From the NCBI GenBank assembly GCA_020342235.1, contig CP073215.1, positions 124,001 to 188,000 of the forward strand: a DNA stretch of 64,000 nucleotides, in the 5' to 3' direction. This stretch comes from Saccharomycopsis phalli. Lineage: Eukaryota > Ascomycota > Saccharomycetes > Ascoideales > Saccharomycopsidaceae. A model generated the notes under the pieces. It worked only from the letters and a program-made list of their open reading frames with translations. It had not been told where the DNA came from and ran no database searches. A program made the position numbers and the translations under genes. This document shows positions 1,913 through 25,201 of this stretch, piece by piece. The first letter of the stretch is position 1. Each line of letters starts with the position of its first letter.

Positions 1913-1962
1913 GTCAACGACTGGTTGTACATGGCTATTGAGAGTAATTTTACATGGCTGTT

Positions 1963-2428
1963 AAGTTAAGTATATTTAGTTCTGTATTTAGCTATATATT
2001 GTCTCCGGAAACACGGTGATTCGACAGATATATTTTCACTCAGGAACATCCTGAGGCAGCATTCTATTGAAGAAAACCCTTTATAACCCTAAACGGTTAT
2101 ATGGGCTGAAAAACTTCAATGGGAGCAGTGTTGTTAGTGGTTTAACGTGACTGGCTATTGGTTATGCGAGAAGCCTGGCCATCCTTCGGCTAAATGCCGG
2201 CGCTATCCGGCCGCTGAATCTCGTGACGATGGGCGCACGACTCGTCGGGGTCGTTCATTGCTCGTTTGCGAGACTTCCTTGTATTGCCCTTCTGAGGCGT
2301 AGTGTGCTCTTTCTGGAGACTTTCTTGAGTATTGGGGCGGTTTGGTGGGGCTCGAACCCGGTAACTACCTCATGATGCGCCCTCCATAAGGCATGAGGTG
2401 TTTTCCATTCGGCCAAACCTCCTGCCCC
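1963..2428 (-). mobile_element. tRNA-derived SINE-like element, full-length copy 1
   Basis: A 466-bp element read on the minus strand. It starts GGGGCAGGAGG, carries a tRNA-like head with A box TGGCCGAATGG and B box GGTTCGAGCCC, then about 380 bp of unrelated body, and ends in an AT-rich stretch (TATACTTAACTT). It is flanked by identical 12-bp repeats tacatggctgtt at 1951-1962 and 2429-2440. I see no difference from the copy at 24262-24727. There are no terminal inverted repeats, no long terminal repeats and no long ORF. Target-site duplications of this length, together with the pol III promoter, fit LINE-mobilised SINE insertion. Caveat: a related tacatggctattgag lies at 1929, so part of the flanking repeat could reflect older local duplication. 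Confidence 0.75.
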
Positions 2429-2440
2429 TACATGGCTGTT

Positions 2441-23912: not shown

Positions 23913-24261
23913 GTCACGGGAGATGAGTGGAGAGGACAAATAGATGGGAGTGGAATGGAAAGTGAATGGAAAGTGATTGGAAAGTGATTGGGAAGTAAAA
24001 TGGAAAGTGAAATGGAAAGTGGAAGATGGAGAGACTAGTGATGCGTATCTGATATTACGTAATAAGTGTGGGTGATGTGAATACACGAGGTATGTGGTTT
24101 TCCATGGATGATGCAAAGGGGTGGAAGAGATGGAAGGGATGGAAGGGATGGAAAGGAAAGGAATTGAATGGGAATTGAAATTTTATTAGAATATTATTGG
24201 AATATTATTGAAATGTTATTAGAATGACATTGGAAGGTCATTGGTCGCCATTGATTGTCAT

Positions 24262-24728
24262 GGGGCAGGAGGTTTGGCCGAATGGAAAACACCTCATGCC
24301 TTATGGAGGGCGCATCATGAGGTAGTTACCGGGTTCGAGCCCCACCAAACCGCCCCAATACTCAAGAAAGTCTCCAGAAAGAGCACACTACGCCTCAGAA
24401 GGGCAATACAAGGAAGTCTCGCAAACGAGCAATGAACGACCCCGACGAGTCGTGCGCCCATCGTCACGAGATTCAGCGGCCGGATAGCGCCGGCATTTAG
24501 CCGAAGGATGGCCAGGCTTCTCGCATAACCAATAGCCAGTCACGTTAAACCACTAACAACACTGCTCCCATTGAAGTTTTTCAGCCCATATAACCGTTTA
24601 GGGTTATAAAGGGTTTTCTTCAATAGAATGCTGCCTCAGGATGTTCCTGAGTGAAAATATATCTGTCGAATCACCGTGTTTCCGGAGACAATATATAGCT
24701 AAATACAGAACTAAATATACTTAACTTA
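24262..24728 (+). mobile_element. tRNA-derived SINE-like element, full-length copy 2
   Basis: Same 466-bp element as at 1963-2428, in opposite orientation and with no difference I can see. A box at 24275-24285, B box at 24332-24342. The tRNA-like head ends in AACCGCC, which pairs with the 5' GGAGGTT with one mismatch. It is flanked by attgattgtcat at 24250-24261 and 24729-24740, a different 12-bp duplication from copy 1. The body contains TTTTT at 24577-24581, which could stop pol III about 320 bp in. The 3' end is AT-rich, not poly(A). Confidence 0.78.
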
Positions 24729-25077
24729 ATTGATTGTCATTGGAATGAGTAGATCAAAGTACTCGATACAGATCACTTCACGTGACCATGGAAGATGCCT
24801 CAATACTGTCTAGTGCATTTCCCAATAAATTGGCCACGATGTTTTAGAATAATTCAAACTTTGGAATATTTCATACTTTGGAATATTTCATTTCTTTCTT
24901 GGTATCGATAGTCAATGGGTAACATCACTTGTGCTTGATTACAGAGAAACTCTGCTCTAATCACAAAGCTGTACCTTATCCAACTGCTGGATCATCCATA
25001 TCTCATTCATATACATCATTCCATACCTTATCGTATACCCATCACACCCATCTACATGATTACAGTATAAATTACCT

Positions 25078-25201
25078 CTTTTTTATATTTATTTCCGCAT
25101 TCATCGATATATCATCTCCGGAAACACAGTGATTCGACAAGTATATCTTCACTCAGACACACCCTGTGGCAGCATTCTATTGAACCCTTTATAACCCCAT
25201 G
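25078..25201 (-). mobile_element. SINE-like element, old 5'-truncated copy 3
   Basis: About 124 bp matching only the 3' end of the two full copies, at about 80% identity; the best block is ctccggaaacacagtgattc. The head and most of the body are absent. An 8-bp repeat aattacct flanks it (25070-25077 and 25202-25209). The 3' end on the minus strand is A-rich. Truncation from the 5' end, with the 3' end kept, is what target-primed reverse transcription leaves. Confidence 0.65.

Follow-up and report, generated by a model that had tools for sequence, protein, structure and literature searches.

The stretch of DNA analysed here, hereafter the window, is a 64,000-nt piece of the genome of the budding yeast Saccharomycopsis phalli (GenBank assembly GCA_020342235.1, contig CP073215.1; G000:C4:124001-188000 in a genome of 14.15 Mb on 8 contigs). 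Among named proteins, the best match to its BRF1 comes from Saccharomycopsis crataegensis (57% over 80%), while the best match of all, at 84%, is to an unnamed protein. It contains two copies of a short repeat that the original prediction, made from the letters of the window, had taken for a tRNA-derived short interspersed nuclear element (SINE). The two copies are indeed identical (466/466 nt), and each lies between its own exact 12-bp direct repeat, tacatggctgtt for copy 1 and attgattgtcat for copy 2. The element consists of a 95-nt head with the A and B boxes of an RNA polymerase III (Pol III) promoter, a central part of about 110 nt, a part resembling the 3' untranslated region (UTR) of a long interspersed nuclear element (LINE) family that we call LINE A, and a short tandem tail. 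Taken together with searches of the whole assembly, this makes it very probable that the repeat is a LINE-tailed SINE with recent activity, working as 'stringent' SINE-LINE pairs do, with LINE A as its probable driver.

The fear that only these copies might exist turned out to be unfounded, for the genome holds 35 young copies, spread over all 8 contigs, and several old copies besides. At least 12 are identical over all 466 nt and the others are mostly tail variants (among the best 40 of 318 candidates; as in a further search, best 40 of 328, remnants of LINE tails were left uncounted). When the 95-nt head is used as the query, all 36 of 36 candidates match, that is, the 35 young copies and one old copy (90%), and nt 1-239 retrieve older copies at 93, 84, 82, 73 and 70% identity (best 40 of 42 candidates). 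Up to nt 457, there are 5 substitutions in 15,513 bp among 34 young copies, two of them sharing one site (L041, 96.6% identical and with indels, was set aside for this count, and the old copies L042-L046 were kept out of all young counts). The SINE is thus recently active, as had been predicted from two copies, and, since older diverged copies exist in the same genome, the present burst is younger than the family.

Each insertion carries its own target-site duplication (TSD) in nearly all cases, 32/35 young copies having one of at least 9 nt, while identity ends at the element borders. As a control, left and right flanks of different copies were paired, and such mismatched pairs reached 9 nt in 17/1,560 cases (1.1%), from 40 analysed copies (38 loci and the two window copies). 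The exceptions are L012, which has no duplication, L035 (7 bp) and L036 (about 8 bp by eye, missed by the script). TSD length varies from about 9 to 15 bp, with the reservations that a measured length may contain 1-2 bases common to the tail and that the length is ambiguous for L022 and L028, whose targets are repetitive. In the 32 TSDs, A or T occupies position 1 in 29, T position -2 in 17 and C position -1 in 13 (raw counts without background), and the insertion sites therefore look loosely alike at the level of sequence.

Two copies, L016 and L023, sit within old copies of LINE A, and their flanks, once the insert and one duplication are removed, continue through uninterrupted LINE copies, which identifies both as insertions. 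For L016, joining the flanks gives 627 nt that match nine of nine LINE A loci at about 95% without a gap, and for L023 it gives 504 nt that match eight loci at 97% and L065 at 93%, gapless in 7/9, with one gap in L066 and two in L065. The duplications at these two sites are hence directly confirmed by empty sites. The original prediction had named flanks lacking duplications by comparison with empty sites as a possible objection, and at both testable sites the opposite was found; its dismissal of segmental duplication holds for the same reason, in addition to the separate TSDs at 32/35. L013 and L017, also tried as empty sites, were excluded because their joined flanks match other repeats only at about 72%, with gaps.

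In 33/35 young copies the element starts at the same base, 13 nt 5' of the A box, and 9/35 have 1-2 additional bases at the 5' junction. Truncation at the 5' end is seen in young L040, which begins at nt 25, and in older L042, which begins at nt 65, and in three copies (L016, L020 and L039) the full element is preceded, inside the TSD, by about 16-25 nt of another head.

Features of the two SINE copies in the window
Feature	Position in window	Strand	Remarks
SINE copy 1	1963..2428	-	Element nt 1-466, the last 9 or so belonging to the tail
TSD of copy 1, 3' side	1951..1962	.	tacatggctgtt, 12 bp exact
TSD of copy 1, 5' side	2429..2440	.	tacatggctgtt, 12 bp exact
tRNA-like head of copy 1	2334..2428	-	Element nt 1-95; A and B boxes
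A box of copy 1	2405..2415	-	TGGCCGAATGG, element nt 14-24
B box of copy 1	2348..2358	-	GGTTCGAGCCC, element nt 71-81
Putative LINE-derived 3' part of copy 1	1972..2222	-	Element nt 207-457; start at nt 207 inferred
SINE copy 2	24262..24727	+	Element nt 1-466
TSD of copy 2, 5' side	24250..24261	.	attgattgtcat, 12 bp exact
TSD of copy 2, 3' side	24729..24740	.	attgattgtcat, 12 bp exact
A box of copy 2	24275..24285	+	Match to box-pair pattern
B box of copy 2	24332..24342	+	Match to box-pair pattern
Central part of copy 2, source not found	24357..24467	+	Element nt 96-206
Putative LINE-derived 3' part of copy 2	24468..24718	+	Element nt 207-457
Tandem tail of copy 2, CTTAA type	24719..24728	+	Unit varies among copies with identical bodies

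A LINE with a matching 3' end, which had been suggested as something to look for although none had been seen in the window, was found: the end of the SINE is carried by nine loci of one family, LINE A. SINE nt 248-457 are 81-82% identical to the 3' end of LINE A in eight loci, nt 306-457 are 84.5% identical in L065, and the last 102 nt (nt 356-457) reach 94% with the LINE A 3' UTR of L073. Further upstream, nt 207-218 form a 12-nt exact match to the sequence adjoining the stop codon of open reading frame (ORF) 2 of LINE A and, as this match alone has an E value of only 0.37, it is its position that places the start of the LINE part at nt 207. Judged by this alignment, the counterpart of the LINE A 3' UTR in the SINE is nt 207-457. 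The body, predicted to be unique, is so only in its centre: a genome search with nt 1-239 gave nothing but family members as a source for nt 96-206 (best 40 of 42 candidates), whereas about half of this body (nt 207-457) is shared with a LINE. By eye, putative hairpins can be drawn at the same place in both elements, GGTCAC/GTGACC just past the ORF2 stop in LINE A and GCCGG/CCGGC at nt 212-250 in the SINE.

LINE A itself, examined at nine of the 91 matches to the RVT_1 profile in the genome, is a non-LTR (long terminal repeat) retrotransposon, with an ORF for endonuclease and reverse transcriptase, 3' repeats and TSDs. In the one copy that was read through, the two stop-to-stop frames have 487 and 1124 codons (or, counted from the first ATG, 485 and 1117); ORF2 encodes Exo_endo_phos_2 (PF14529) and RVT_1 (PF00078) domains, while ORF1 has no Pfam match. 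The 1124-codon frame is intact in 5/9 loci and the start of ORF1 is present at 9/9 5' ends. Flank repeats of 12-15 nt (lengths that include bases common to the tail) occur at 6/9 copies, in all of which the element starts only a few nt 5' of the ORF1 ATG, and among mismatched flank pairs 1/72 reaches 12 nt, a pair sharing a left flank. Two copies on contig C1, L101 and L106, have their left flank in common but not their right one, as recombination between copies might produce. The family is young: three copies (L067, L068 and L071) show no difference over 3,654 nt, L069 agrees with them over 3,651 nt, and over about 3.65 kb five further copies are 99.8-100% identical to these three and L065 is 96.6% identical. 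As for its affiliation, the reverse transcriptases retrieved from protein databases and the PDB were all distant, the 33 database relatives of ORF2 being 21-30% identical (9/33 with a PF00075 RNase H domain). The tail is (TTA)n and not poly(A), and this, together with the ORF2 relatives, would point away from L1.

The tail of the SINE is made of 4-5-nt tandem units (CTTA, CTTAA or CTTAT), which implies that the end of the 466-bp repeat, as initially delimited, falls within tail repeats. It had been rightly noted that there is no poly(A), but this tandem tail had been missed. Scripted classification of the 35 young copies gave 15 CTTAA, 6 CTTA, 5 CTTAT and 9 tails that were short or of another kind (L041, scored as 'other', is of the CTTAA type by eye), and L039 has instead a repeat of the terminal 12 nt or so of the element. 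Since the units differ though the bodies are near-identical, the unit is probably made at insertion. Old copies add a historical dimension: L044, and partly L045, end in TTA repeats as LINE A does, and L042, L043 and L046 have the ATACTTA end of young copies, so that a change of tail, from the TTA to the CTTA type, seems to have taken place in the history of the SINE.

At the other end of the element, the head has the expected Pol III boxes, at nt 14-24 and 71-81, and their gap of 46 nt corresponds to the spacing in Leu/Ser-type tRNA genes. A pattern made of both boxes 40-70 nt apart occurs at 52 sites in the genome, namely 34 SINE heads, in which both boxes are exact, and 18 other sites, whereas the reversed pattern is absent (0 sites). 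The 18 other sites, from their matching sequences, look like Leu/Ser-type tRNA genes, and the Rfam tRNA matches (best 63 of 806 candidates) overlap 2/18 of them. The head of copy 2 is predicted to fold (-41 kcal/mol, z -2.68), with GGGGC closing with GCCCC. ARAGORN found no tRNA in the whole window and the Rfam tRNA model had no match on copy 2 even at E<=10. The notion of a tRNA-derived element is therefore borne out as far as boxes and spacing go, and the parent tRNA was not found; from its sequence the head is likely of tRNA ancestry, which is not proved because the head itself goes unrecognised by tRNA tools and searches. A functional tRNA gene next to an unrelated body, mentioned at the outset as what might undo the prediction, does not fit either, since the head travels with the body and is not recognised as a tRNA.

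These elements suggest how the SINE might be propagated. RNA polymerase III would initiate from the head, by means of its internal A and B boxes, and the transcript would pass weak internal T-runs (T5 at nt 316-320, which had been noted, and T4 at nt 353-356); the T5 is also present in the LINE A 3' UTR. Because the resulting RNA would end in a copy of that 3' UTR, it could be taken by the LINE A protein as a template for target-primed reverse transcription, in which (i) the LINE A endonuclease would nick the target, (ii) the first strand would begin at the 3' tail, with slippage giving rise to tandem tails of 4-5 nt, (iii) synthesis would reach the 5' end, where 1-2 untemplated bases might occasionally be added or the enzyme might jump back and copy the head a second time and (iv) a staggered cut of the second strand would generate TSDs of about 9-15 bp. 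Both the transcription by Pol III and the dependence on LINE A are what we infer from sequence, and slippage and template jumping are the presumed causes of the tails and of the repeated 5' heads.

Some results weigh against this scenario, and they are best considered together with the explanations that compete with it. The most obvious is the tail mismatch, young SINE copies ending in CTTA, CTTAA or CTTAT and LINE A in (TTA)n, which could mean that the SINE is now moved by another LINE (of the families B or C described below, or an unseen CTTA-tailed one) and that its LINE A 3' UTR reflects ancestry only. The long ORFs of families B and C would suit such a role, yet they too have (TTA)n where their ends were read, and their 3' regions (one read each) show no significant match to the SINE. 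Moreover, no LINE with the SINE tail came to light: the tail word TAAATATACTTA has 39 matches in the genome (10 for the reversed pattern), 36 of which are family members, the other three being without an intact LINE end. LINE A and the SINE are of about the same young age, and the LINE-like TTA repeats at the end of old L044, and partly of L045, link the two through their tails, so that a different present-day driver appears unlikely. Further points against LINE A as a working partner are that the ORF2 frame is shortened (937-1095 codons) in 4/9 loci and that ORF1 was fully read in one copy only. Nor does a common 3' stem-loop gain support from compensatory changes. In 16 sequences the 19 pairs of the drawn stems hold in 87.2% of cells (22-50% when the stems are slid), but only one pair shows a double change, the covariation score was reached by 491/500 shuffles and a consensus fold of the 3' region keeps one 5-pair hairpin, without double change (the set being 16 of 32 distinct segments, without the partial ones and the complete or near-complete L002, L023, L031, L039, L046 and L085). 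As regards the tail search, L109 and L111 were rejected as candidates since they contain old fragments of the SINE family or of LINE A, and L110 since it has only a 15-nt match (it was compared with the SINE and LINE A alone).

The remaining difficulties concern transcription and the origin of the head. The internal T5 lies ahead of the LINE tail and could stop Pol III transcripts, so that a template made by Pol III would require read-through, as the copies contain this T5; a T5 within 100 nt past nt 457, where a transcript might end, is present in only 3/35 copies (17/35 within 400 nt), and no source copy stood out when T-runs were listed for all 35. In addition, the search of the genome for a parent tRNA with the 95-nt head (E<=10) returned the family members only (36/36 candidates). 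The T-runs, internal T5 and T4 alike, together with the scarcity of nearby terminators, would suit a non-autonomous element whose A and B boxes are relics and whose RNA is made by Pol II or starts at promoters nearby. Against this, both boxes are exact in 34 copies, and 33/35 young copies share a start 13 nt 5' of the A box, where Pol III would be expected to initiate; we regard this option as improbable. Two others can safely be set aside. The near-perfect identity of the copies might suggest a conserved multicopy noncoding RNA gene, or segmental duplicates held identical by gene conversion, which is irreconcilable with separate TSDs at 32/35 copies, identity that stops at the element ends and two precise empty sites. 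Likewise, a short dispersed repeat with direct repeats at both sides could be a solo LTR or a miniature inverted-repeat element of a DNA transposon, were it not for TSDs of variable length, variable tandem 3' tails, 5' truncations (L040, L042) and a 3' end common to a LINE. An active SINE with LINE A as its probable driver thus best accounts for the whole, and its many dispersed copies, TSDs, Pol III boxes, 5' truncation and LINE-type 3' end uphold the initial assignment to this class. We also lean, with less assurance, towards a bolder version, in which this would be the first well-documented SINE of a budding yeast with its own young autonomous partner, its tail having switched from TTA to CTTA with a unit remade at each insertion, and its reverse transcriptase sometimes jumping into a second head.

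LINE A is not the only family of its kind in this genome. Family B comprises L074, L075 and L076, with frames of 1139-1152 codons, and family C comprises C7:22877, C1:1427541 and others. The single 3' region read for each (L098 and L100) ends in AAATAAACAT(TAT)n, and neither matches the SINE significantly; these families may have SINEs of their own. Regarding the surroundings of the window copies, tacatggctatt (window 1928-1939) lies just ahead of the TSD tacatggctgtt (1951-1962), which means that the target of copy 1 is itself a near repeat. About 350 bp away from copy 2, at window 25084-25184 (-), is a decayed LINE A-type 3' end, 84% identical to the SINE tail over 101 nt, and a second, diverged tail match is found within about 1 kb in 10/35 young copies (a raw count without control).

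With a very young SINE and young LINE copies in a compact yeast genome, one could use a microbe to ask by genetic means how 3' ends are recognised, how tails form and whether Pol III is needed. If our reading is true, budding yeasts are not free of SINEs, and genome papers that screen for LTR elements only would overlook such SINE-LINE pairs. The terms 'SINE' and 'non-LTR' are nowhere used in the main text of a 2026 genome paper on Saccharomycopsis schoenii. Among the papers listed in searches of the open literature, no title or abstract opening describes a SINE in a budding yeast, a basis on which priority cannot be claimed; the kind of element is known from filamentous fungi and it is the budding-yeast lineage that is apparently new.

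Most work on how LINEs recognise SINEs appears to have been done in animals and plants, and the eel SINE that is the partner of the LINE UnaL2 is UnaSINE1. This eel pair is the model of stringent recognition, the TGTAA repeats of UnaL2 being ascribed to template slippage, in a paper that is in line with the animal and plant focus and whose reference list includes an entry on a mosquito SINE and its 'changing tails' (PMC3747384). The parallel with S. phalli lies in a SINE with the 3' end of a LINE, and a LINE with short terminal repeats other than A. The difference is that UnaL2 belongs to an animal clade, L2, and that its tail recognition was tested experimentally, whereas for the present pair it is proposed from sequence. 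For stringent LINEs, recognition of a stem-loop has been reported (PMC5135761), while the present pair is without compensatory changes.

Within budding yeasts, the closest known elements are non-LTR retrotransposons of the L1 type with poly(A), Zorro in Candida albicans, of which Zorro3 has a very short 5' UTR, as LINE A does, and shows template switching in Saccharomyces cerevisiae (PMC7175516), and Ylli in Yarrowia lipolytica, for which TSDs were not identified (PMC5014426). LINE A differs from both by its (TTA)n tail, its 12-15-nt flank repeats at 6/9 copies and its probable SINE partner, no such partner being mentioned in the relevant parts of these papers; the spread of tRNA genes by LINEs is raised in the Yarrowia paper as speculation only (PMC5014426). 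Elements of similar design, likened here by their descriptions, come from filamentous fungi. Mg-SINE (472 bp), Foxy, nrs1 and others, with 11 to about 160 copies (PMC5063351), are of the same size class and, in the case of Mg-SINE, have a tRNA-derived head, although they belong to other lineages. Another counterpart is AfuSINE2-1a of Aspergillus fumigatus, a tRNA-related SINE whose 3' part is like the 3' UTR of the LINE I-1_AF and which ends in ACT repeats (PMC5063351): it belongs to a filamentous fungus in which most LINE-like copies are not intact, but it combines, as the SINE of S. phalli does, a 3' part resembling a LINE 3' UTR with short terminal repeats.
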